Source of the DNA: Lachnospiraceae bacterium | GTDB taxonomy: Bacteria; Bacillota; Clostridia; Lachnospirales; Lachnospiraceae | Direction: 5' to 3' | DNA: 64,000 nucleotides | Assembly: GCA_022510725.1 (NCBI GenBank) | Contig: JAFLSW010000001.1 | Coordinates: forward strand, 294,150 to 358,149 | In this document: piece by piece, positions 16,019-29,259 of the stretch | Layout of the letters: every line of letters begins with the position of its first letter | Position numbering within the stretch: position 1 is the first letter of the stretch | Notes under the pieces: generated by a model | What the model saw: only the letters and a program-made list of their open reading frames with translations | Told to the model about the DNA's origin: nothing | The model's database searches: none | Translations under genes and position numbers: made by a program

Positions 16019-17329
16019 TTAACAAAACATTGGGAGGAATGTCGATAATAGGAATAACAATAATAGTATCAATGGTAGTATTAAAATAATTTTGGTCAGT
16101 ATTCCCAATTCCGGTATCTCTATTTTTCGACCAATATATCTTTTCACCTTTTCCATATATGCTAAATATTCATCCTTAAATACAGACATCAGATAAGGTT
16201 CCCTTACATGAACGACATAAAGATGGAATATCATTATGCTAAAAATAGTTATCCATAATAAGATTTGATTAAAAAACAGAAGAAGAATACCGATGTATAC
16301 CAGATCAAAACCTAAGATTGCAGGATTACGGCTAAACCCATAGATGCCCTTTGGGACAAGTATGGTTTCACCCGAATCGGATATTTCTGTCTTCCAGCTA
16401 TCATTCATTGTCATGGCCGCAAGGATAAAAACAATGATACCCAAAAAGCTTGTAACAATTCCCAGGTTCCGAATCCATATAGGAAAGCCGGTGGTTTTAC
16501 AAAAAATACTGACTAATTCAGCCAGGGAAACCAGGCAGGCAGCGATTTTTCCCATGATCACAATTCCTTTTTTTTCAATGGACTTGCCTTTTTGGGGCTG
16601 CGCTGTCTTAATTCCTTTTTTCCTTTGGCTAAATATCCTGATAAAGCAGCAGGCATAAAGTGCTGCCAAGGTCACCACTGCCGGGATCTGATAGTGCAGT
16701 TCTTTCGAAAAATTTTGATAGACCTCTGCATGTTCTACATTATCATCTATGGTTGCATCCATAAACCTGAAATATCCCAAATTGTCCATAGAGTATCTCG
16801 AACGGTATCCTAAGGCCTCAAAATAGTCCCTTAAGAAGATATCAAAAAGAAACTGCTTTTTTTCGGTGTTTTCCGGATCGTTGGTTTCATAGACCAGAAG
16901 TTTTTCATCTACATAATAGATATATAGATAATAGTCTCGTGAAGTTATGTGGCCTTCCTCATTATAATAACTATATGAATATTCAAACCACATCTGCCTT
17001 TCCTGATCTTTCGTCTTTGCAACGCAATAAATAGATAGGAATTCATTTTCACCTAAGATCCCCTTGCGATAGTATTCTTCAAATAGAGTGTCTGCAAAAC
17101 ATAAGTCAATGCCAATCTCTCTGGGTTCAATCTGAGGCATAAAGCGAAAATTACCATGGTATGGTTTGAATAGACTGTAGTGGTATTCCTCAGCACTGGT
17201 GATTCTGGAATGATACATCTCATCAAACACATTTTCTACCTGATCCGGTCTTATCATTGCAAGTATAAATAGATTTAGCAACAGTGATATTATCACTAAT
17301 TTACCGAAAGTTTCTTTTATCTCTTCCAT
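16019..17329 (-). CDS. Membrane protein with C-terminal ICMT/PEMT-like methyltransferase domain
   Basis: A 436-residue protein. It has an N-terminal membrane helix (about 10-26), an extracytoplasmic domain of about 170 residues that I do not recognise, then several helices. From about residue 310 the sequence matches the isoprenylcysteine carboxyl methyltransferase/phospholipid methyltransferase (ICMT/PEMT) type: GIYGFSRNPAILGF, two helices, then HVREPYLMSVFKDEYLAYMEKV, where the RNP and the Glu-Pro segment belong to the S-adenosylmethionine-binding half. The substrate is unknown. Its promoter lies directly downstream of LytTR-type repeats shared with the next operon, so it is a likely target of the adjacent two-component system. 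Confidence 0.75.
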   Translation of the reverse strand: MEEIKETFGKLVIISLLLNLFILAMIRPDQVENVFDEMYHSRITSAEEYHYSLFKPYHGNFRFMPQIEPREIGIDLCFADTLFEEYYRKGILGENEFLSIYCVAKTKDQERQMWFEYSYSYYNEEGHITSRDYYLYIYYVDEKLLVYETNDPENTEKKQFLFDIFLRDYFEALGYRSRYSMDNLGYFRFMDATIDDNVEHAEVYQNFSKELHYQIPAVVTLAALYACCFIRIFSQRKKGIKTAQPQKGKSIEKKGIVIMGKIAACLVSLAELVSIFCKTTGFPIWIRNLGIVTSFLGIIVFILAAMTMNDSWKTEISDSGETILVPKGIYGFSRNPAILGFDLVYIGILLLFFNQILLWITIFSIMIFHLYVVHVREPYLMSVFKDEYLAYMEKVKRYIGRKIEIPELGILTKIILILPLILLLLFLLSTFLPMFC

Positions 17330-17386: not shown

Positions 17387-17413
17387 AGTATAATCTATTA
17401 AGTTGTCTGTCAA
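17387..17413 (-). promoter_or_regulatory. Promoter of the ICMT-like gene
   Basis: On the minus strand TTGACA is followed by TATACT at 15 bases or TACTTT at 17 bases. The short or weak -10 placement suggests dependence on an activator, and the LytTR-type repeats end nine bases before the -35 box. Confidence 0.6.
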
Positions 17414-17415
17414 TA

Positions 17416-17461
17416 GATTTTGCACCAGGTACAGATTTTTTGCGCGAGATACAGATTTTTT
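17416..17461 (-). promoter_or_regulatory. LytTR-type direct repeats, left copy
   Basis: On the minus strand ATCTGTATCTCGCGCAAAA is followed at 21 bases by ATCTGTACCTGGTGCAAAA, then TTGACA. The same array with the same spacing occurs at 19849-19897 in the opposite orientation. Paired direct repeats two helical turns apart, next to a -35 box, are the expected binding pattern of a LytTR regulator, which is encoded just to the right. The array also lies upstream of the regulator's own -10 box. Confidence 0.75.
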
Positions 17462-17471
17462 ACTGCAAATA

Positions 17472-17480
17472 TGGTAAAAT
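17472..17480 (+). promoter_or_regulatory. Extended -10 of the LytTR regulator gene
   Basis: TGGTAAAAT is an extended -10 box about 68 bases before the GTG start. No consensus -35 is present; the LytTR-type repeats occupy that region, which would allow autoregulation. Confidence 0.5.
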
Positions 17481-17547
17481 GTTCGCAAACACAATGAGTC
17501 AGCGTAATCATGGCATAATGAGCCCAAGAGAGTCGGAGGATAGATCG

Positions 17548-18294
17548 GTGTTAAAAATTGCCATCTGTGATGATGAAAAAGAAGAACTGGAAAAAACGGT
17601 TTCCCTTCTTGCGGAGATACTAAAAGAAGAAGACCGGGAATATGACCTTGCGACCTACCATTCTCCGTCGGAAATGATGGAAGATGGGAAAGAGGCGGAT
17701 ATTGCCCTGCTGGATGTAGTCATGGGCAGTGTCAACGGCATTGAACTGGGCAGGAAATTAAAACAGCGATTCCCGGATATCAAAGTGATCTATACCACAA
17801 GCTTTGAGCAGTATTGCATGCAGGCCATCAATGAAATACATGCTTATTCCTTTTTGTGTAAGCCCTTAAAAAAAGAAGAACTGAAGCCTCAGCTTCTGGA
17901 ACTGATAGAAGCGGTATCAAGCTTGAACGATCTAAAGGAGATCGAATTTAACAATATTCTGACTGACGACGGAACTGAGCTGTCATTTTTTAGCCTGAAA
18001 TTAAAAGATATTTTCTATTTTGAATCCATTAAGACTGATCGAAAAGTTTCCGTTGTGCATACAGATGGGGTATTTACATGCGCTCTTGTCATAGACAAGC
18101 TGGCGAAAGAACTGAAAGAAGAAGGCTTTGCCGTAAACTGCAGGGGGCAGTTGGTGAATTTAAGACATGTGACCAAGCTGAAAGGCTATGATCTTTATCT
18201 GGATAATGGAAAAACCCTTCCTCTTTCTCAGAAACGGGTGGCCGAATTTAAGAAACTGATGAATGATTTTTTACATGGCAATATAAAAAGGTGA
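17548..18294 (+). CDS. LytTR family response regulator (AgrA-like)
   Basis: A 248-residue regulator. Residues 1-125 form a receiver domain (CDDEKEE, ADIALLDVVMG with the phospho-Asp, and the conserved Lys in CKPLKKEE). Residues 140-240 form a LytTR DNA-binding domain (DIFYFESIKTDRKVSVV, then FAVNCRGQLVNLRHVTKL). The track starts at 17440, but GGAGGA lies seven bases before GTG 17548, so I take that start. The kinase gene begins eight bases after the stop. It most probably binds the two repeat arrays at 17416-17461 and 19849-19888. Confidence 0.93.
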   Translation: MLKIAICDDEKEELEKTVSLLAEILKEEDREYDLATYHSPSEMMEDGKEADIALLDVVMGSVNGIELGRKLKQRFPDIKVIYTTSFEQYCMQAINEIHAYSFLCKPLKKEELKPQLLELIEAVSSLNDLKEIEFNNILTDDGTELSFFSLKLKDIFYFESIKTDRKVSVVHTDGVFTCALVIDKLAKELKEEGFAVNCRGQLVNLRHVTKLKGYDLYLDNGKTLPLSQKRVAEFKKLMNDFLHGNIKR

Positions 18295-18302
18295 AATAGG
18301 AA

Positions 18303-19589
18303 ATGGAAAGAGTCGCACTTTACATATGTACCCTTATATCCTGCTATATTGAAATGGAGCTGGTCTGGGGCTTTATGAATGCAAGATATAACAGGACAAG
18401 AAAAAGCAAGTATCTGTACCTGGGCATAGAAGCCGCTATGATCCTCTTGATCTCAGGCATTCATATGCTTGCCATTCCGGTTCTGAATCTCTTTATCTGG
18501 TTAGTGGGAGTAGGGCTCTGTGCTTTCTTTCTCTTTCAGGAAGAGGGGAGCAGAGGATTTAAAAGGGTCTTGGAATGTGAAGCGATCATCGTATTTATCG
18601 GGATCACGGAAGCTTTGGGTACAGTCTATGCGGACTGGGTATTAAGGCTGCTGCCCCTTGACATATCACAGACACTGGTTTCCTGTTTTGAGATCATCTT
18701 TTCCAAGATCATTGTTGTCTTATGTTATATCCTTGTGGGAAGGCTGATAAAAAGAAAAAAGGTTCCTTTTTCTAAGATGCAGTATGCTGCTAATATTATC
18801 ATACTGGCATATATTCTCTTAAATATCTTTTTGCTGTCAAACAATATGGACAACAGGCCGGGAGACTACCTGCTGTTGGTGAACTTAGGCTGTATCGTGA
18901 TCGGTGATTTTTACCTTCTGTATTTTTCCCGGGTCATCAATGAAAAAGATTACCTGACATTTGAAATAAAGGCCTTAGAAGAGCAGGCAAAGATACAGTA
19001 TGAGTATTATTTGCGCCAGGAACAAAATTATCATAAGACTGTTCATATTCTTCACGATGTGAATAAGCATGTAAAATCCATTGAACAGCTTTACTTAAGC
19101 AAAGACCGGAAAAATGCGGCGGAGTATGCCGGACAGATCGGGGACATGTTGGAGCCTCTGCTGCCGGTAAAATATACGGGCAATCCTATTTTGGATATCC
19201 TGCTCACGGATAAGGCAATGCAGATGGAAGAAAAATCCATAAGCTTTGGGATTGACATAGACCATGTGGGCTTGGATTTTATGGAAGCCATTGATGTGAC
19301 CACTATTTTTGGCAATCTCTTAGACAATGCCATTGAGGCCTGCGAAGAAGTGGATCGGGACAGGAAGATCCATATCAAGATAGATTCTTACCATGAAATG
19401 GTAGTCATCCGCATGGAAAACAGCTGTAAGAGCGTCAAGTGGAAACAGGAATGGCCTGTCAGCCAAAAGGGAGAAAACAGGGGCATCGGCCTTCTCAATG
19501 TCAAGCGTGCCATTGAAAAATATGACGGCGATATTAAGATGAAAAATGAAGGCGAACTGTTTATTGTAGATATCTTTTTGAATGCGTAG
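18303..19589 (+). CDS. AgrC-like GHKL sensor histidine kinase
   Basis: A 428-residue kinase. The N-terminal 215 residues contain six or seven hydrophobic helices, as in AgrC and other peptide-sensing kinases. A coiled-coil leads to the H-box LHDVNKHVKSIE, then the GHKL ATPase domain with GNLLDNAIEACE (N-box) and RGIGLLNVKRAIEKYDGDI (G-box). It forms a two-gene operon with the LytTR regulator. No agrB/agrD pair is nearby, so the signal is not evident. It is complete. Confidence 0.93.
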   Translation: MERVALYICTLISCYIEMELVWGFMNARYNRTRKSKYLYLGIEAAMILLISGIHMLAIPVLNLFIWLVGVGLCAFFLFQEEGSRGFKRVLECEAIIVFIGITEALGTVYADWVLRLLPLDISQTLVSCFEIIFSKIIVVLCYILVGRLIKRKKVPFSKMQYAANIIILAYILLNIFLLSNNMDNRPGDYLLLVNLGCIVIGDFYLLYFSRVINEKDYLTFEIKALEEQAKIQYEYYLRQEQNYHKTVHILHDVNKHVKSIEQLYLSKDRKNAAEYAGQIGDMLEPLLPVKYTGNPILDILLTDKAMQMEEKSISFGIDIDHVGLDFMEAIDVTTIFGNLLDNAIEACEEVDRDRKIHIKIDSYHEMVVIRMENSCKSVKWKQEWPVSQKGENRGIGLLNVKRAIEKYDGDIKMKNEGELFIVDIFLNA

Positions 19590-19848
19590 GCGGGAATGAT
19601 ATTGACAAAAAGAACACGCCTTTCATACAAGGGGTTATTCTTGTTATGTGAAATCACTTATATTTTTTTGTATCTTATTAATTGTACAGATTGTTTTAAT
19701 AATAGATAACACATTTGAAGATTGATAACAAATATGAGACGAGAAAAAACATGAAGGATTACTTAGAAAGAGAAAGGATCAATTTTGAGGCAGAACTAAT
19801 CGGAAAATGTTAAAAGCAAAACCAACTCTCGATACAAGATAGGTAAAT
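19590..19848 (+). other. Spacer between kinase and target operon, with a possible 20-residue ORF
   Basis: This stretch contains a near-perfect hairpin (CATACAAG with CTTGTTATG) around 19624-19647, which may end the kinase transcript, and an AT-rich region. ATG 19751 to TAA 19813 encodes a 20-residue peptide, MKDYLERER...ELIGKC, ending in Cys. Its ribosome site is weak and there is no AgrB-like gene, so coding is doubtful. I see nothing else here. Confidence 0.25.
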
Positions 19849-19888
19849 ATCTGTATCTCGCGCAAAAAATCTGTACCTCGTGCAAAAG
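19849..19888 (+). promoter_or_regulatory. LytTR-type direct repeats, right copy
   Basis: ATCTGTATCTCGCGCAAAA and ATCTGTACCTCGTGCAAAA are direct repeats 21 bases apart, ending four bases before TTGACA. Except for a few bases this equals the minus strand of 17416-17461, including the distance to the -35 box. This is a likely activator site for the LytTR regulator. Confidence 0.75.
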
Positions 19889-19891
19889 CCA

Positions 19892-19919
19892 TTGACAAAA
19901 ACAGGGATAGGTATATATT
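19892..19919 (+). promoter_or_regulatory. Promoter of the uncharacterised membrane-protein operon
   Basis: TTGACA is followed by TATATT at 16 bases (ATATTT at 17). It directly follows the right LytTR-type repeat array and precedes the gene at about 19942. Confidence 0.65.
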
Positions 19920-19941
19920 TTGGTTAAAATGCGGGTATCTC

Positions 19942-20742
19942 TTGAAAAAGGAAGTGTTGGCAATAAAGAAGGTAACAGATTTATTGATCATTTTGCCCAT
20001 TACGCTTATGATAGCTTATTTTAGCGCAATCTATTTGTGGTATTTTATCTTATTTCCCAGTTATTTGGTTGATCCTGATCATTTAATGGAAAATAAACCT
20101 GTATGGGAAATGAAAGAAAGGTATTTTGGGAAGGAATATGAAAAAGAGCGTACAAGGGCCCTTATTTCACTAAATTACCAGATGTTTTGGAGAGGACAGA
20201 CTTCTCTTTTTGTTGTTCAGGACAGTGATGGTGCAGGCGATTGTCGGCTTGCCATATACAGTAGTATTGCCGCGGATCGGGGAATAAACAGTGAAATTGC
20301 CAAGGGCGATTGGATGATAACGATTTCTAACCTGATCCTATGGCATGACAGCAGTCGGCATATGGGTATTTGTGCAGACACATTGGAGGATACTCCGGTG
20401 GAAATCAGTGTTGGCTCCAAGGATTATGTGCTGGATGAAACAGAGGAATCCATAAGAGCCTTTGAAGAAGAAACCGGTCTGGATGCAGAGGGATATCTGG
20501 ATATGGTCCGTCTGATCCGGGAGGAATACCGGACCGATCTGAATACACTCATTGAAATGGACTATCAAAGAGTAAGATCCGGAATCATAAAAAGAGTATG
20601 CAATTTATCCCTTATATGGGGAATCTGGCTTATATTCTGTGCCCTTGTGCTTAAGTGGGACAAAATCTATGCGCTCTACAACAAGCGCTATGAAAAGAAG
20701 TTGGATGGATATATGGAAGACTTTGGAGAGGGGAAAATGTAA
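19942..20742 (+). CDS. Membrane protein of unknown function, paralogue 1
   Basis: A protein of about 260 residues with an N-terminal membrane helix, an extracytoplasmic domain of about 180 residues and a second helix near residue 225, then a charged cytoplasmic tail. It is a clear paralogue of the next gene: both contain LDETEESIRAFEEETGLDAE, then REEYR and a KWDxIYxLYxxRYEKKLD tail. The start is uncertain: TTG 19942 has no ribosome site, and AAGGAAG at 19948 is too close to GTG 19954 and TTG 19957. It is the first gene after the LytTR-controlled promoter. The family is not recognised. Confidence 0.65.
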   Translation: MKKEVLAIKKVTDLLIILPITLMIAYFSAIYLWYFILFPSYLVDPDHLMENKPVWEMKERYFGKEYEKERTRALISLNYQMFWRGQTSLFVVQDSDGAGDCRLAIYSSIAADRGINSEIAKGDWMITISNLILWHDSSRHMGICADTLEDTPVEISVGSKDYVLDETEESIRAFEEETGLDAEGYLDMVRLIREEYRTDLNTLIEMDYQRVRSGIIKRVCNLSLIWGIWLIFCALVLKWDKIYALYNKRYEKKLDGYMEDFGEGKM

Positions 20743-20754
20743 AGGGAAGTGATT

Positions 20755-21534
20755 ATGATGAAGGGGAAAGATAATCTATTTGTTACGATCGTGGTCATAA
20801 CGACCATTATGTTTGGTATAAGTGCAAATTATCTGTATTGGTTCGTTATGTATCCTGAGTATTTGGGCGGAAATATACCTATTTGGGAAATGAAAGAAAG
20901 CGGCTTGGGAAACAGTGAATATTTTATTGACATAAACAAGCAATATTTATGGCGTGAAATAGATTCCATTTTTTATGTCAGCGGCATCGCCAGGGGTTCC
21001 CTTTTTGTGGAAGAGATGGAAGAAACCTGGCTGGCTGTAAACAGCAGAATTGTAAAGAATTGTAAAGTATCAGACGGTCAGATCCAGTGGCATATGGATC
21101 AGCAGGAGCAGGACAGGCATGAGTATGTGCATGTTTATGCGGATGTATTGGAGGATACGCCATTAGAAATAAAGATATCCATCAGAGCCGATGACGGTTC
21201 ACACAGCCTGAATGAATATACGCTGGATGAAACAGAGGAGTCCATAAGAGCCTTTGAAGAAGAAACCGGTCTGGATGCAGAAAAATACCTGGATACGATT
21301 CGACTGCTCCGGGAGGAATACCGGGCAGATTTGATCAAGCTGAGTAAAATACAGTATCGGAAAGCAAAAGTCAAAGTGCTGAAAACCCTTGGCAATATGT
21401 CGATCATTTGGGGAGTCTGGGGATTATTCAGTATTGTTACATTGAAGTGGGATATGATCTACGGACTTTATATGAGGAAATATGAGAAAAAATTAGACCG
21501 ATATATGAAAGAATTTGCGGAAGAAAGGCAGTAG
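20755..21534 (+). CDS. Membrane protein of unknown function, paralogue 2
   Basis: A 259-residue protein with the same plan as its upstream neighbour: N-terminal helix, extracytoplasmic domain, C-terminal helix and a Lys/Glu tail. The membrane-proximal C-terminal half is strongly conserved between the two, the external N-terminal half much less, which fits diversification of an outward-facing domain after tandem duplication. ATG 20755 follows AAAGGGA at seven bases; the track start GTG 20749 is less likely. The gap to the previous gene is only about a dozen bases, so they share a transcript. Function unknown. Confidence 0.68.
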   Translation: MMKGKDNLFVTIVVITTIMFGISANYLYWFVMYPEYLGGNIPIWEMKESGLGNSEYFIDINKQYLWREIDSIFYVSGIARGSLFVEEMEETWLAVNSRIVKNCKVSDGQIQWHMDQQEQDRHEYVHVYADVLEDTPLEIKISIRADDGSHSLNEYTLDETEESIRAFEEETGLDAEKYLDTIRLLREEYRADLIKLSKIQYRKAKVKVLKTLGNMSIIWGVWGLFSIVTLKWDMIYGLYMRKYEKKLDRYMKEFAEERQ

Positions 21535-21583: not shown

Positions 21584-22900
21584 ATGAAAGGAAAAGCATT
21601 CATATTTATTTTATCGATCACTTTATTGTTGACAGGCTGTCGGCAGGAAACCGAGGTGCAGTCGGAAATAGAAGAACAGGTAGCGGTATCTGACAATGAG
21701 ATTCCCGGAAATTCAGATGAAGCGCTTGGCAGTTATGAAGGAGAATGGCATCGTACAGATGTGGCATCCTATGAAGATGCAGAAATCCATATCACAAACT
21801 GGAAAGAAGGCGAATCCTTTGATGTAGTAGTGTATGTAATTTACACCACCCATCCGGGGCATTTAAGCGGAACGGCTACATTCTTAGATGAAAATACAGC
21901 AGTATTATATGATGAGGGAGCATTGGATTTCTTGGACAATGAAGAAAATGAGGAAGATTTAGGCGTATACTTCCACTTTTATCCGGATGAGATCCAAATT
22001 ACCCATGGCCAAAAAATAAGGCTGTGGTTTGGCTCCGGCGGAATTGCCACAGCAGAAGGCAGCTATATTCAGGGGGAGCCGGAGTATACAAATTGTACAG
22101 ATGTACGTGAAATTTTTTCGGCGCAGGAGCTGCAGCAGATCCGGGATCTTTTAGGCGACAGATATGAACCTTTATTTGAAGATGCCATTGTGTTAGGCAG
22201 GATAAATGGACAGGATATTGAAAATGGGCGATTATGGGAGGCTGTATGGCCGCCTCATGTTGCATGGTGCAATATCATAATCTATGATAATGGTGATATC
22301 TATATTGACGGTATGACTTTCAATGATGGAGAATATGAGTTTTTTACCAATACGAATGATACCCAAATGCCGGATATAAAAACATTAAAAAGCGGTAAAG
22401 TCAGCCGGGAACTCGGAACCCTTACATACAGTATGTCCCGGGAGGGAGAAAACTCTGTCCTGGTTGTGAAGGATGATGGGGGAAATGAATTATATTCGGA
22501 TGCATTTGAAACCGGTTACGAACCTGTAGTCAGCGTCATCGATCAGGACACGATTGAGATCGTTTACGGAAAAGGGGACTGGCACCAGTCCGTATTTGTA
22601 AACGGCAGAACAGGTCAGGTGTCCCCTGCAATCGATGATGTGCTTGCTGCCAACGGGAAAGTGGCGGTACATGCAGGATTCATGGATGGACAGATGAAGA
22701 TCATCATTGAGGATATTTATGATGAAGAAAAGGGATATAAAGAGATCATAGACGATTTTCCGCCTGTGGCAGTAGGTAAACATGCGGTAAAAGATGTCAC
22801 ATTTTTAGATGATGACCGGATCGAGATCAGCTACTATACGGGGCAGGATGAGAATGCGGATGGATGGACAGTAAAAACCGTTACGGTATCCCTGCCATGA
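21584..22900 (+). CDS. Predicted lipoprotein of unknown function
   Basis: A 438-residue protein with a lipoprotein signal peptide ending LLLTGC, so it should be attached to the outer face of the membrane through Cys 19. The mature part is acidic and beta-rich, with an N-terminal domain around GEWHRTDVASYEDAEI resembling lipocalin-like or stress-related sensor domains in style only, and a C-terminal half of repeated short strands. No catalytic motif is visible. AGGAG precedes the ATG and no terminator separates it from the upstream paralogues, so it probably belongs to the LytTR-controlled operon. Confidence 0.7.
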   Translation: MKGKAFIFILSITLLLTGCRQETEVQSEIEEQVAVSDNEIPGNSDEALGSYEGEWHRTDVASYEDAEIHITNWKEGESFDVVVYVIYTTHPGHLSGTATFLDENTAVLYDEGALDFLDNEENEEDLGVYFHFYPDEIQITHGQKIRLWFGSGGIATAEGSYIQGEPEYTNCTDVREIFSAQELQQIRDLLGDRYEPLFEDAIVLGRINGQDIENGRLWEAVWPPHVAWCNIIIYDNGDIYIDGMTFNDGEYEFFTNTNDTQMPDIKTLKSGKVSRELGTLTYSMSREGENSVLVVKDDGGNELYSDAFETGYEPVVSVIDQDTIEIVYGKGDWHQSVFVNGRTGQVSPAIDDVLAANGKVAVHAGFMDGQMKIIIEDIYDEEKGYKEIIDDFPPVAVGKHAVKDVTFLDDDRIEISYYTGQDENADGWTVKTVTVSLP

Positions 22901-22927: not shown

Positions 22928-23263
22928 ATGGAGTTTTATTATGAAAGCCACTATGCAATCGATCTTTGCAGAGAGTATATAAAGCACGATAATGTCTATG
23001 ATAAATTTTCTTATACCTGGGAAGAAAACGAGGATCATTTTCTCATTACATTTTTGGAATTTAAAAACAGCATACGGAGTCTGCAAAATTCTCCCAAGCC
23101 CACCTTTAAAGTGGTGTTTGAAGATCTGGGCACAAAGACCGGCATACATGTAGAATTTATCAAGGCTTTTTTACAGCCCACACCATTTGTTTTTCCCAAG
23201 GAAAGTGATGAATTCTGGAAGAGGAAGCTGGATGCGGAAAAGATTTCATCGGAACAGAAATGA
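22928..23263 (+). CDS. Hypothetical cytoplasmic protein
   Basis: A 111-residue soluble protein without signal peptide or membrane helix. It has an aromatic-rich start (MEFYYESHYAIDLC) and a charged C-terminus. AAGGAG lies upstream of the ATG. Its stop overlaps the ATG at 23260 of the next frame (ATGA). I do not recognise it. Alone among its immediate operon neighbours it appears cytoplasmic. Confidence 0.6.
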   Translation: MEFYYESHYAIDLCREYIKHDNVYDKFSYTWEENEDHFLITFLEFKNSIRSLQNSPKPTFKVVFEDLGTKTGIHVEFIKAFLQPTPFVFPKESDEFWKRKLDAEKISSEQK

Positions 23264-23280
23264 TCAGAGGTGTATTCTTT

Positions 23281-23751
23281 ATGAAAGCTTTGAAAATTAC
23301 AGCAATCACATTTTTGGGTATTGTCATAGCAGTAATATTGCTGTTTGCAGGATATGAGATCCTGGGCATATTTGTAAATCAACATGCCGCGGATAAACAG
23401 GAAAAGGCCCTTATGGGTATCATGGACGCTTCTGACACAGAGCTGTTGGACCATTATACTTTTGTAGGAAATTCCAGCGGCACAGGCAATCATGTAGACC
23501 TGTTGACCTTGATAATCGTAAAGGCGGAAGAGAAAGGCGTCATAGAAAAGGCCCTTGAAGAAGCGTATGAAGAAACGGGAACCTTTCCTTTGGAATATTT
23601 TACCGTTACCCCTCTTAGTCTATCTAAAGACAGCTATGATCCTTATGCAAGGTTTATGGATGAAATGACCATACCGGAGGATATGGAAAACTGCTATCTC
23701 ATTTCTTATTGTGATTCTGCGCCTTTTGCGGATAATATCATAGGGCACTAA
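23281..23751 (+). CDS. Hypothetical membrane-anchored protein
   Basis: A protein of about 156 residues with one N-terminal helix (AITFLGIVIAVILLFAGYEI) and an extracytoplasmic domain. ATG 23281, preceded by AGAGG, places the helix at the very N-terminus; the track start ATG 23260 overlaps the preceding stop and is an alternative. The external part has the motif TFVGNSSGTGNHVD and appears folded, but I recognise no family. It is in the run of membrane or exported proteins downstream of the LytTR-type promoter. Confidence 0.6.
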   Translation: MKALKITAITFLGIVIAVILLFAGYEILGIFVNQHAADKQEKALMGIMDASDTELLDHYTFVGNSSGTGNHVDLLTLIIVKAEEKGVIEKALEEAYEETGTFPLEYFTVTPLSLSKDSYDPYARFMDEMTIPEDMENCYLISYCDSAPFADNIIGH

Positions 23752-23872
23752 GATTGTCCTTATCATGATCGTGTTGAATATTTTTTCCATAAATATTTAT
23801 CAGTTTATTCGTATTATGAATAGAAAGGCTTGAAAAGCATTTCATGATGTCTGATAAATAGGAGGAAAGAAT

Positions 23873-24424
23873 ATGAAGAAAAAACTGATTCGGTTATTGG
23901 CTGTACTTTTTGGAGTGATCATCGTAGGATTTGTGCTTTGGGCAGTTGTTGCTTCTGCGCAATTTACGATAGAAAACGAGATGAGAAAAAAGAGAAATAA
24001 TGAGCGGACAAATGAAGAGTACATGGACTTTTTGCGGGACAATCAGGAGGACTTTGAATATGTGGCAAGGATCATGCAGGGCATGGAAGAAATATCATGG
24101 ATATATGTTGGGAAAACAAATCCAAATTATGAGAAAAATGGGATTAAAACAGTAAGGATTGATGACTATTATTATACCAATAATCAAAAAATAGCGGATA
24201 AAGCAGCAGAGGATCAGGAGTTTTATGAACATCTGATCAATTTAAAAAATCTGGACTTAATCTATAGCATCGTGACTTACGGCGATGGTGAGGTCATGTT
24301 TGATTTTTATCAGTTTCCGGAAGATTACCATGGCGGTGTGCAGTATGTAGAACAGGCAGAAGATGATTTCCCGTATTATAAAATTGATGAGCATTGGGAA
24401 TTGATGATGATGCCTAATATGTAG
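23873..24424 (+). CDS. Hypothetical membrane-anchored protein
   Basis: A 183-residue protein with an N-terminal anchor (residues about 7-29) followed by a highly charged helical segment and a Tyr/Asp-rich external domain. GGAGG lies eight bases before the ATG. The gap of about 120 bases before it is AT-rich and could hold a secondary promoter, but I see no convincing one. Family unknown. It is similar in size and plan to its neighbours without obvious sequence similarity. Confidence 0.6.
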   Translation: MKKKLIRLLAVLFGVIIVGFVLWAVVASAQFTIENEMRKKRNNERTNEEYMDFLRDNQEDFEYVARIMQGMEEISWIYVGKTNPNYEKNGIKTVRIDDYYYTNNQKIADKAAEDQEFYEHLINLKNLDLIYSIVTYGDGEVMFDFYQFPEDYHGGVQYVEQAEDDFPYYKIDEHWELMMMPNM

Positions 24425-24454
24425 GAGATAAAATGGAAAAGGAGCAAAATACAT

Positions 24455-25081
24455 ATGAGCGAAAAGCAAAAGACCATATTTAAGACTATGATGATCCAAT
24501 CGATCCTTGTTTCAGTTGTGTTCATGTTAAGCCGGGCTTTTTCATGGGTGCTTTATGACGCTTTGGGTCTGTTCATTTATGCTCCTTATACATTGCTTTT
24601 ATTTATTATAATGGGAATCTCTTTTATCGCTTCTTTGGTTTATGCCATTTCAGGCTGTGTGAATCAAAAAATAGTAAAAGCGGTCTGTCCACTGTTAGTC
24701 TGCTTCTGGAGTGTGGTATTGACCTTTCTTCTTTTTAGTGAAAGTCGGTTACGCTTCTATAATTACAAATTTTATGAGAAAAAGAGGGAGGCCTATATAG
24801 AGTATGTCATAAACAACGACAGAAGAGTGGGGGAAGGCGGTCAGATAGAATTTCGTGATACGGACCAAAAAACGCTGCCTTTTGATAAATCTGTTTCTTT
24901 CATATCCAATGGAGATATGACGGGGATCTATTTTCAAACCGATCCGGGTCTGTTGGATGAATCCTCCGGATATTTGTACATATTGGATGGGAATCTGCAT
25001 ACCAAGCCTCATCTTGTTTCGTATATGGTAGTAAATCAGCAGTTTAACGGTGGTTGGTACTATGTGGGTATACATTGGTAA
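24455..25081 (+). CDS. Hypothetical multi-pass membrane protein
   Basis: A 208-residue protein with three hydrophobic helices in the first 95 residues and a soluble C-terminal domain of about 110 residues, probably outside the cell. AAAAGGAG precedes the ATG. The next gene begins 12 bases after its stop, so they are co-transcribed. I do not recognise the family. Confidence 0.6.
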   Translation: MSEKQKTIFKTMMIQSILVSVVFMLSRAFSWVLYDALGLFIYAPYTLLLFIIMGISFIASLVYAISGCVNQKIVKAVCPLLVCFWSVVLTFLLFSESRLRFYNYKFYEKKREAYIEYVINNDRRVGEGGQIEFRDTDQKTLPFDKSVSFISNGDMTGIYFQTDPGLLDESSGYLYILDGNLHTKPHLVSYMVVNQQFNGGWYYVGIHW

Positions 25082-25093
25082 AGGAGGAATAGG

Positions 25094-25537
25094 ATGATGT
25101 ATGTCTTTTTCTTTTTATGTATAGCCGGTCTTATCATAGGAATATTGTCTTTGGTGTGCATTTATGTAACAGTTAGAGATAAGATAAGGAAAGTGAAGGG
25201 GCAGAAATTAATAGGGACCAAAATAAGCAGCAGGAAGATCGATACCGGAATAGGCTCTTATTATCATATGGAAGTAGCATATAGGCTAAATGGTGCTGAG
25301 TGCAGGCAGAGGCTGCTCTCCACTTCCCAAAAGTTCATGGATTACAAGATAAATGAACCCATCCCACTGCTCTATATGGCAAAGAGCAATAAAGTCTATT
25401 GGGCAAAAGATAATCGTGTGGGAAAGGTTTTTAAATTTACATTTGCAGCCATGTATGTTCTCTATTGGGCCTTTCTTGCCGGCTTTCTTCTGGTAGCGCT
25501 TTGGACATGTGCGTTCCTCTATTCGTTTACAAGATAA
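25094..25537 (+). CDS. DUF3592-like membrane protein
   Basis: A 147-residue protein with an N-terminal helix, a beta-rich middle and a C-terminal helix. This topology and the sequence style resemble DUF3592 proteins, small membrane proteins with a domain between two helices. AAAGGAGG precedes the ATG. It appears to be the last gene of the operon; the -35 and the extended -10 for the chemotaxis receptor lie at its 3' end. Function unknown. Confidence 0.6.
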   Translation: MMYVFFFLCIAGLIIGILSLVCIYVTVRDKIRKVKGQKLIGTKISSRKIDTGIGSYYHMEVAYRLNGAECRQRLLSTSQKFMDYKINEPIPLLYMAKSNKVYWAKDNRVGKVFKFTFAAMYVLYWAFLAGFLLVALWTCAFLYSFTR

Positions 25538-25601: not shown

Positions 25602-27089
25602 ATGGGTAAAACAAAAAAAGCATATATGAGTGAGTTGGAGCGGGTCAATAGGACGGTATTTCTCTGCTACATGATAGAGGTCATTACCATATGGCTGGCT
25701 TATATTCTGGAAGTGGTAAAAGGCAGCAGGACAATAGGATATTTTCTTGCTTTTTCCGCCACAGTTTGGATCCCGGCCGTTATTTTGATAGTCTTGATCA
25801 AGACAAAACCGGATTCCAGATATTTTAGGGTCGTTTTGATTCCCGGTTTTGCCGTTATGTATACATTTGCATTGTACACCACTACAAACAAGCTTACATT
25901 TGTATATGCTATGCCCATGCTGCTTGCTGTTACCATGTACAACTCGGTACAGGTTTCCCTGTTGTCCAGTATAGCAGCCACACTTTTAAATCTGATACAG
26001 GTGATCTATATTGCTGTAACAAGAGGAATGACACCGGAAGATACGGCAACGGCTGAGATCCAGGTATTGATCATGGTATTTGTCGGCGCTTATGCCATCA
26101 TCCTGAATAAATCCGCACAGGCCGGCAATGCAGACAAATTGGCTCAGGTGGAAGCCCAGAAAGAGCAGACAGCCATGCTGTTAAACAGTATTGTTACTTT
26201 GTCAGGCAATATTACGCAGGGTATTTTTGATGTTAAGAATCATATGGAAAATCTGGGCGATTCCGCTTCTAAGAGCTTAAGTGCCATGGAAGAGGTGACA
26301 CAGGGAAGTGCGGAAACTGCAGAATCCGTCCAGTCTCAGCTGACTAAAACAGAAGAGATCCAGAACCACATTCATAAAGTAGAGAAGGCAACTTCTACTA
26401 TTGTTCATAATGTGGATGAAACAAGAGATGCTATTTCCCAGGGAAATGCCACGCTTCGGACTATGTTGGATCAGGTGAAAACAACCGAAAGATACAGCAA
26501 CAGAGTGGCAGAAGAGCTTTCCAAGTTGGATGAATACACCCAGCAGATGCACTCCATTGTAGAATTGATCAATAATGTAGCAGATCAGACCTCTTTGCTT
26601 TCTTTAAATGCCAGCATTGAGGCGGCAAGAGCCGGCGAGGCCGGAAGAGGCTTTGCGGTTGTGGCATCAGAAATTTCTTCTCTGGCAGGTCAGACCCAGG
26701 ATGCGACTGAAAATATTGAAACTCTGATCCAGAATATCTCTAATAAATTGGAAAGTGTCATCGGTGCTATCAACACGCTGGTAGACGCAAATAACGAGCA
26801 GACCGGAAGCGCAATGAGTACAGAGGAAAGCTTTACAGTCATTGCAGATAAGGTGACTTCTATTACAGCGAATGCTCACGAACTGAGCCAGATCGTAAAA
26901 CTGTTAGCAGTGGCAAATGAAGGCATTGTGGAAAGCGTTCAGAATATTTCCGCTATTACGGAAGAAGTTTCCGCTCATGCAAATGAGACCTATGCAAGCA
27001 GCAATGAGAATACAAGGATTGTAAAAGAGGTTGGCGATATTGTAGAAAGGCTTAGCCGCCAGGCACAGGAATTGGCGGAACATCGTTAG
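25602..27089 (+). CDS. Methyl-accepting chemotaxis protein
   Basis: A 495-residue receptor. The first 170 residues hold six hydrophobic helices with little extracellular domain, and no HAMP domain is evident. The C-terminal 290 residues form the coiled-coil signalling domain; the hairpin tip is [20 protein letters not shown], the standard kinase-contact sequence. It would relay a membrane-sensed cue to CheA/CheW. GGAGG precedes the ATG. The following gene, encoding a 7TM/HD-GYP protein, starts 13 bases after the stop, linking chemotaxis and c-di-GMP turnover in one transcript. Confidence 0.95.
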
Positions 27090-27102
27090 AAAGGAAGCGG
27101 CA

Positions 27103-29259
27103 ATGCAGGAAATACTGGTATTGTATTATCTGGTCGCTCTGATAGCGGCATTGATCCTACTGAAAGCTTATAAAAGAAATACCGTGATCGGTACAAAAAT
27201 TGGCAAGGTAATGCTTGCCACTTTTTTGCTGGTCGTATTTTATTCCTTTCAGATCAATGGCGCTTCTTATTTTGTAAAGTCTATTGCCCTAAGCCTTTCC
27301 TTTATTACCATGGATATTATGGTGTTGTTGTTCCTGGATTACATTCTGGAATTTATCGGATGGCGGGATAAACTGGCAAGACCCATGTTTTTGGGGACCA
27401 TTGCATATGGGGTAGTGGATATTGCTTTTATGTTGATCAATCCCTACTATGAAATTGCGTTGGGATACAATACGGTTTCCTTTGGAGAAGATTTTGTATT
27501 GACCTATGTGCCGAAGATGCCTTATATTCTGCACAATATTTATGTTGTGGCAGTGGTAGCTGCCTCCATTCTCCTGTTGGTATTAAAGTGCAGGGAGATT
27601 CCAAAGGTTTATTGGAAACGCTACTATATCCTCATAGCAGGTATAGTGGTAGCGGCTTTTGTCAATGTGATCAACCTGAATATGATGGAGGTAATCCCGG
27701 TAGATATTTCTCCCGCCTTGTATTGCGTGGTGGGGATTTTAATGTATTACAATACATTTCATTATCTTCCCATGGTTACCTTAAGTCTGACCAAAAGGAT
27801 GATCTTGAATTATTTAAGCGAACCGGTTGTATTGTTCGACTATGAAGGATTTCTTACAGATTACAGTAAGGATATCCTTACTGTAATGCCCAATACCCGT
27901 TTTGAAATAGGCGTCCTGACCATGGACGCTTTTCTTGCTGAAGGTAAATTTAAGGGGTTCCGCAATTTAGAGCAAGACCAAGATTTTGAATGGGCTGCCA
28001 AAATCGGAAAAGATTCCCATATTTATCAGTGTAAATTCAAGTGTATGAAAGATTCCAAAGGGCGCAGCATCGGAAAGATATTTGTTTTTAATGATATTAC
28101 TTCCATGCGGAATACTTTCTTCGAGTTAGAGCGGTCTATTATGTATGATCCTTTGACCGGTTTTTATAATAAGCAGGCATATTTGAATCAGGTGCCCCAA
28201 TGGAATGACAGCAGGTATTGGCCGGTGGCTCTTGTGGTATGCAATATCAACGGCCTGAGAAATATAAACGATCAGTTTGGAACGGAATATGGGGATGCGC
28301 TCATGAAACAGCTCGCCCGGTTGATCCGTATCAATGTTGGCGAAGAAACTTATGCCGCAAAACTGGATAATGGAGATCTGTTAGCTGTTTTAGAGGGAAA
28401 ATCCCATGAAGATGCAGCCGATATTTTTGAAAAGATCAAACAGGATGCGGAGTCTTTATTCGGAGAGGAAAATCCCGTTCATATTGAGTATGGTATTGCA
28501 GTAAAAGAGCGGGAAGATGTGACCATGGAACGGATTCTTTCCGATGCCCGTACCAGTATGCAGAATAAGAAGATGCTCAGGGATAACTCTGCAAGCAGTT
28601 CTTTGGTAGACTCCTTAAGACAGACCTTAAGTGAAAGCGATTATGAGACAGAAGAACATGTGGAGCGTACCAGGGAGATGGCGGCTCGTCTTGGCAAACG
28701 CCTGAATCTTTCCGATTCCGATATTGGTAAGTTGGAACTTCTGGCAGTTCTTCACGATATTGGCAAAGTGGCTATTCCGCATCATGTCCTTGTAAAGAAG
28801 GGCAAGTTGAATGATGAAGAATTTAAGATCATGCAGCAACATACCATTAAGGGTTATCGTATTGCAAAATCTTCGCCAGAATTGGGAGATATTGCCGAGT
28901 GTATCTTGTCCCACCATGAAAAGTGGGATGGAACCGGCTATCCCAACCGGTTGAGAGGAGAAGATATCCCGCTGCTTGCAAGGATCATTTCCGCAGTGGA
29001 TTCCCATGATGTTATGGTACATAACAGGCCTTATCATCAGGCCATGCCGGAAGAGGATGCCATTAAGGAATTGCGCCGTTGTGCAGGTACGCAGTTTGAT
29101 CCCCATATTGTGGAAGTGTTTACCCAAATGTTGGAAGAAGAGGAATTGCCCCGTATAAAAGAAGAACGGGAAAAGGAAAAGCAGGAAGCGGAAAATGCCG
29201 CAAAAGAAGTAGCGGCCAATATTTTAGCCAAAGAACAGGAAAATAAGGAAGTGTCATAA
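27103..29259 (+). CDS. 7TM sensor with degenerate GGDEF and HD-GYP domains
   Basis: A 718-residue protein. Residues 1-225 form a seven-helix sensor like the histidine-kinase N-terminal 7TM domain, followed by a PAS-like segment. A GGDEF domain (about 340-500, starting YDPLTGFYNKQAY) has LDNGDLL in place of the GGDEF signature, so it is unlikely to make c-di-GMP. The HD-GYP domain (about 520-690) has LHDIGK, HHEKWDGTGYP and the metal-site Asp in SAVDSHDVM, so phosphodiesterase activity is plausible. A charged coiled tail follows. It lies in an operon with the chemotaxis receptor. Confidence 0.92.
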   Translation: MQEILVLYYLVALIAALILLKAYKRNTVIGTKIGKVMLATFLLVVFYSFQINGASYFVKSIALSLSFITMDIMVLLFLDYILEFIGWRDKLARPMFLGTIAYGVVDIAFMLINPYYEIALGYNTVSFGEDFVLTYVPKMPYILHNIYVVAVVAASILLLVLKCREIPKVYWKRYYILIAGIVVAAFVNVINLNMMEVIPVDISPALYCVVGILMYYNTFHYLPMVTLSLTKRMILNYLSEPVVLFDYEGFLTDYSKDILTVMPNTRFEIGVLTMDAFLAEGKFKGFRNLEQDQDFEWAAKIGKDSHIYQCKFKCMKDSKGRSIGKIFVFNDITSMRNTFFELERSIMYDPLTGFYNKQAYLNQVPQWNDSRYWPVALVVCNINGLRNINDQFGTEYGDALMKQLARLIRINVGEETYAAKLDNGDLLAVLEGKSHEDAADIFEKIKQDAESLFGEENPVHIEYGIAVKEREDVTMERILSDARTSMQNKKMLRDNSASSSLVDSLRQTLSESDYETEEHVERTREMAARLGKRLNLSDSDIGKLELLAVLHDIGKVAIPHHVLVKKGKLNDEEFKIMQQHTIKGYRIAKSSPELGDIAECILSHHEKWDGTGYPNRLRGEDIPLLARIISAVDSHDVMVHNRPYHQAMPEEDAIKELRRCAGTQFDPHIVEVFTQMLEEEELPRIKEEREKEKQEAENAAKEVAANILAKEQENKEVS

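Follow-up and report, generated by a model that had tools for sequence, protein, structure and literature searches.

The closest described counterparts of the locus examined here are Agr-type and other LytTR-dependent circuits. In Staphylococcus aureus, AgrA acts at P2/P3, where a pair of direct repeats upstream of the promoter is bound by a LytTR dimer (PMC4227749). Characterised LytTR sites comprise 9-base repeats that are 11-13 apart and lie 4-11 bases before the -35 (PMC6193735). In Clostridium acetobutylicum, Agr controls the gene that immediately follows agrCA on its 3' side, acting through the intergenic region between them (PMC10301443).

The present locus lies within a stretch of 64,000 nucleotides (hereafter the window, the whole stretch of DNA that was analysed) from the genome of a Lachnospiraceae bacterium. 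Like the agr locus of C. acetobutylicum (CA_C0082 downstream of agrCA), it combines a GHKL kinase and a LytTR regulator with a promoter 3' of the pair that is predicted to be Agr-controlled, and it further resembles clostridial agr in that relatives of the window pair have agrD/agrB behind the same repeat pair (hereafter the box). It differs from the C. acetobutylicum system in that the regulator gene precedes the kinase gene, agrB and agrD were undetected, and the predicted outputs are TipC-like and uncharacterised membrane proteins. As at S. aureus P2/P3, two direct repeats stand upstream of each promoter, although the promoter spacer is near 15-17 bases here and 18-20 bases in P2/P3. The geometry of the window boxes also fits the LytTR sites of HdrRM and BrsRM (PMC6193735); however, in those systems the LytTR regulator is partnered by a membrane inhibitor protein, whereas the window encodes a full two-component pair.

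Repeat arrays around an Agr-type pair

A preliminary description of this DNA had claimed mirror-image paired arrays at equal distance from TTGACA on either side of a two-component pair. Such arrays exist on the minus strand at 17456-17418 (A) and on the plus strand at 19849-19887 (B), and in both the second TGTA lies 20 bases from a TTGACA. The claimed repeat spacing of 21 bases has to be corrected, as the measured period is 20 bases in both arrays. The half-site consensus of the two arrays is TCTGTAYCTCGYGCAAA; the S. aureus AgrA half-site has a different sequence. When up to three mismatches were allowed, ATCTGTAYCTSGYGCAAAA matched four times in the 64-kb window, all four matches being exact, and dinucleotide shuffles of the window gave a mean of 0.11 matches and reached a count of four in none of 100 cases; the window repeats are far beyond chance. 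A direct-repeat pair with a period of 20-22 bases just upstream of a -35 is characteristic of a LytTR operator, and both arrays have this form (period 20; second TGTA to TTGACA 20). The features of the region, in window coordinates, are as follows.

16019..17329 (-): 436-aa membrane protein with an N-terminal TM and TipC-type extracellular domain (about 11-185) and an ICMT/PEMT-like methyltransferase domain (about 219-399)
17408..17413 (-): -35-like TTGACA of predicted operator A, 20 bases from the second TGTA and followed by a -10-like TATACT/TACTTT
17418..17456 (-): predicted operator A, two half-sites with a 20-base period, upstream of the left-hand gene 16019..17329
17548..18294 (+): AgrA-like LytTR response regulator (Pfam Response_reg PF00072 and LytTR PF04397); GTG start, GGAGGA upstream
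18303..19589 (+): AgrC-like GHKL sensor kinase, membrane protein (Pfam HATPase_c_5, E 1e-25; NCBIfam AgrC below cut-off)
19849..19887 (+): predicted operator B, two half-sites with a 20-base period, 3' of the kinase gene, a position kept in relatives
19892..19919 (+): promoter-like TTGACA-16-TATATT of predicted operator B, 11/12 consensus positions
19942..20742 (+): 266-aa membrane protein, first gene after operator B; start codon uncertain
20749..21534 (+): 261-aa paralogue of the 266-aa protein, 45% identical
21584..22900 (+): 438-aa putative lipoprotein, no family above cut-off
22928..25537 (+): five more co-directional small, mostly membrane-associated genes, no families above cut-off; putative members of the operator-B transcript

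The Pfam domains agree with the claim that a LytTR regulator and an AgrC-like kinase lie between the two promoters. The pair has the make-up of an Agr-type system: a HATPase_c_5 GHKL kinase, a regulator with receiver and LytTR domains, and orthologues linked to agrB and agrD. The NCBIfam equivalog cut-offs for staphylococcal AgrA/AgrC were missed (36.4 against 400 bits and 39.3 against 500 bits), and, judged by these profiles, the window proteins are related to the staphylococcal ones but distinct from them. The pair belongs to a class that serves bacteria in sensing their density, here in a gut-type bacterium.

Distribution of the box in the genome and in relatives

The draft genome (2.37 Mb, 97.65% complete, in 58 contigs) has the exact double pattern at the two window sites only. 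A genome search allowing up to three mismatches recovered a double array with one mismatch and the same architecture as the window arrays (C16:27505-27543(+)), and a single-site search recovered a weaker pair with a 19-base period (C34:29043-29077(-)). The second TGTA lies exactly 20 bases from TTGACA in all four boxes (A, B, C16 and C34). A matrix built from arrays A and B alone scored C16 at 45.8 and C34 at 32.6, whereas its scores in 2.56 Mb of simulated sequence peaked at 22.5, so that the count of boxes rises from two to at least three and very probably four, two of the four being unlinked to the pair. Further weak boxes may exist in the genome beyond the pattern-search matches. The two-promoter regulon of the preliminary description is therefore too small; a flood of unrelated copies, which would have spoken against it, did not appear, but two extra boxes did. 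The C16 box precedes a protein of about 206 aa, which shares 43% identity with the N-terminal half of the 436-aa protein encoded at the left in the window. Behind the C34 box come genes for a hypothetical protein (about 180 aa) and then an M23 peptidase. Since promoters A and C16 are alike beyond the box, downstream of it, these two boxes are probably a duplicate of one promoter with its gene and not independent.

An alignment of kinases found orthologues in the family, and the loci of relatives were then fetched by kinase protein similarity alone. They were scored with a matrix from this genome's boxes, which gave no match of at least 18 in 2.56 Mb of simulated sequence (maximum 16.8). At loci chosen in this way, the kinase gene is immediately followed at its 3' end by a box in four genomes (G435, G016, G415 and G100), and in G249 a box stands upstream of the regulator; the G435 and G016 boxes, at 18.7, are barely over the simulated maximum and fall under the null maximum by the window-only matrix. 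Searching the collection of species genomes for the exact pattern gave four records (UBA7480, RUG13856, D16-51 and B84_9_MI_BP, whose contig sequence is the same as that of G221), and in every one the box is immediately preceded by an orthologous kinase gene. The window kinase is 46-54% identical to these orthologues, and the window regulator is 41-49% identical to box-adjacent regulators of other genomes. A related kinase with a diverged box in the same position was also found in a human-fecal record filed as 'Bacteriophage sp.' (MT839695, version MT839695.1, L115), which is probably a bacterial contig; viral contigs yielded no kinase relatives and no exact boxes. Several kinase relatives, the one in G366 and the second copies of G415 and G390, lack a recognisable box, and in G128/G390 any box is a diverged one. 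Matrix matches of 15-18 at three loci with more distant kinases (L072, L076 and L082) were taken for chance. At 19 loci with non-orthologous regulators, no box was found (0/19).

Two side observations concern these loci. In G146 (L111 1555-9141 (-)), the kinase frame is not closed by a stop codon but extends into a very long protein of secreted type, 2528 aa in total, which is either a fusion or an assembly fault. Additionally, genes near the box in L103, L057, L115 and L106 encode small proteins with an 'ISxxG'-like segment (for example VKLSISNEGLEYYR, VTISDAGRKLF, LTISASGKEKL).

Arrays in opposite orientation on both sides of the pair could also be a relic of recombination or of a transposon, in which one stretch was copied to both ends of a 2.4-kb segment. 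This is very improbable, as close identity is limited to the box and TTGACA, no transposase-like gene lies between the arrays, single copies occupy the same place in other genomes, and two more copies stand ahead of unlinked genes with the same promoter geometry. A somewhat less remote, though still improbable, reading is that another LytTR protein binds the boxes and that their position round the pair is incidental: the genome encodes seven LytTR proteins, and such proteins can recognise related repeats. However, none of the six remaining LytTR genes has a box within about 1.5 kb, and in different genera the box is associated with this kinase/regulator clade. Moreover, the two same-genus genomes scanned with the 20-base period, G005 and G008, have neither a box nor a close orthologue (best identity 29% and 27%). 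Because the boxes accompany orthologous kinase/regulator genes elsewhere and are absent round the other six, they are very probably, as had been claimed, LytTR operators of the regulator between them. On the strength of comparative genomics, joint control of these promoters by the adjacent Agr-type LytTR regulator is judged likely.

Genes behind the boxes

The left-hand target had been described as an ICMT-like membrane protein. Its methyltransferase domain is upheld by Pfam, with PF04191 (29.5 bits) and PF04140 (26.9 bits) over the gathering score, but the description is incomplete in that the N-terminal half is a separate TipC-like domain; against NF040696 the protein reached 54.3 bits, missing the NCBIfam equivalog cut-off of 160. 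The 30-bit cut-off of the TipC family NF033863 was missed by both the C16 protein (24.8 bits, E 2e-5) and the 436-aa window protein (13.6 bits). A joint profile of the two found a homologue in G217 (E 1.5e-9) that is a full NF033863 member (80.3 bits) and matches TipC2 (PDB 6DHX) at E 3.5e-6, and the A and C16 proteins are considered TipC-like because this bridging homologue matches TipC2. We infer that two of the four box targets (A and C16) bear TipC-like immunity domains with a putative immunity function, TipC being one of the proteins by which bacteria are shielded against the toxins of rivals. Shared with TelC/TipC (PDB 6DHX) are the N-terminal TM with an extracellular domain and an N-[IV]-FDE motif; in contrast, one TipC-like copy here is fused to an ICMT-type methyltransferase, and no LXG toxin over cut-off was found in the genome. 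An LXG match in the window, below cut-off, falls in a chemotaxis-receptor-like protein (25602-27089). The AlphaFold model of the 436-aa protein is of low confidence (mean pLDDT 46).

In G217 (L093 508-3587), the TipC family immunity gene lies directly after the gene for a DUF4280 protein, which we take to be PAAR-like, and beside that for a HamA-domain protein. The matches of short frames in G228, G015 and G030 are confined to the junction segment of the 436-aa protein, and these frames may be stand-alone methyltransferase relatives.

The first protein behind operator B (266 aa) has no Pfam family, no match over a curated cut-off and no significant PDB match. Together with its paralogue, it showed no profile similarity to the TipC-like set and no significant PDB relative, and AlphaFold models of both are of low confidence (mean pLDDT 51). 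After the operator-B run (25602-29259), the window encodes a methyl-accepting-chemotaxis-like protein and a GGDEF + HD-type protein, as judged by eye.

Agr signal genes and the proposed circuit

AgrB/AgrD adjoin the kinase/regulator orthologues in L054, L056, L057 and L106. Behind the box, AgrB is encoded in L054, L056 and L057 (Pfam E 1e-29 to 2e-31) and AgrD in L057 (TIGR04223, 40 bits); the AgrD of G221 is likewise supported by TIGR04223, and profiles built in this analysis place AgrD/AgrB behind the box in G313 too. RUG13856 has boxes ahead of both agrB and agrD, and in D16-51 and G221 the gene behind the box is agrD, followed at once or some genes later by agrB. In G313 (L106), the box stays directly before agrD despite an insert between kinase and box; a group II intron reverse-transcriptase-like gene, identified by eye, lies between the kinase and the agrD box (L106 9978-11327). 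A box ahead of agrD/agrB corresponds to the autoinduction layout of Agr-type quorum sensing. In G435, G415 and UBA7480, the gene behind the box is something other than agrB/agrD. Since the box-driven genes of relatives are partly agr signal genes and partly swapped others, the box targets of this genome are better viewed as probable outputs than as components of the signalling itself; to call them one signalling circuit, as had been done, goes too far, the shared operators arguing for shared regulation.

Neither AgrB nor AgrD was found over cut-off in the 97.65% complete draft (58 contigs), and the best AgrB match in the genome, a sub-threshold one on contig C55, looks by eye like a VanZ-like protein. 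A complete agr quorum-sensing system, with its own AgrB and AgrD, was thus not found in the draft genome, which apparently lacks agrBD, draft incompleteness being the main caveat.

The explanation that we favour, and hold to be likely, is an AgrA-like activator with its operators at A, B, C16 and C34. The AgrC-like membrane kinase would sense an extracellular signal, most likely an AgrD-class cyclic peptide, and would phosphorylate the LytTR regulator. The regulator, presumably as a dimer, would bind the two half-sites just upstream of TTGACA and activate operators A and B and the two unlinked promoters (C16 and C34). Most of the predicted outputs belong to the envelope. Operator A would yield a protein in which an ICMT-type methyltransferase is joined to a TipC-like domain, and C16 a TipC-like protein that stands alone; operator B would serve a run of uncharacterised membrane proteins, and C34 a hypothetical protein with an M23 peptidase after it. 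Several relatives would instead have agrD/agrB under the control of this box, giving autoinduction.

As a special case of this explanation, the circuit may be a receiver-only one: agrBD would have been lost while kinase and operators were kept, such that peptides of neighbouring species would act as a warning and pre-induce TipC-like immunity and envelope proteins at the four loci before an attack. The missing AgrB and AgrD matches, the TipC-like genes at two of four boxes in a genome with no LXG toxin over cut-off, and the existence of orphan tipC genes (PMC6193138) are consistent with it. However, the draft may lack the stretch with the signal genes, or these may have diverged too far to be recognised; the kinase could respond to a different stimulus, the TipC-like function is putative, and the operator-B proteins are by comparison not TipC-like. 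The receiver-only reading is considered possible but rather unlikely.

Under the favoured explanation of an AgrA-like activator acting at four boxes, the apparent absence of agrBD together with immunity-like targets makes this an interesting variant: an Agr-type circuit apparently without peptide genes and wired to surface and immunity-like proteins. Little literature was found on such circuits in the Lachnospiraceae, the family in which the relatives are filed, and there the box would provide a searchable DNA word for reading Agr-type regulons. Membrane genes that were uncharacterised would now be tied to a regulator. If the absence of peptide genes is true, this bacterium would be a testable example of a species that monitors others and arms itself in response.
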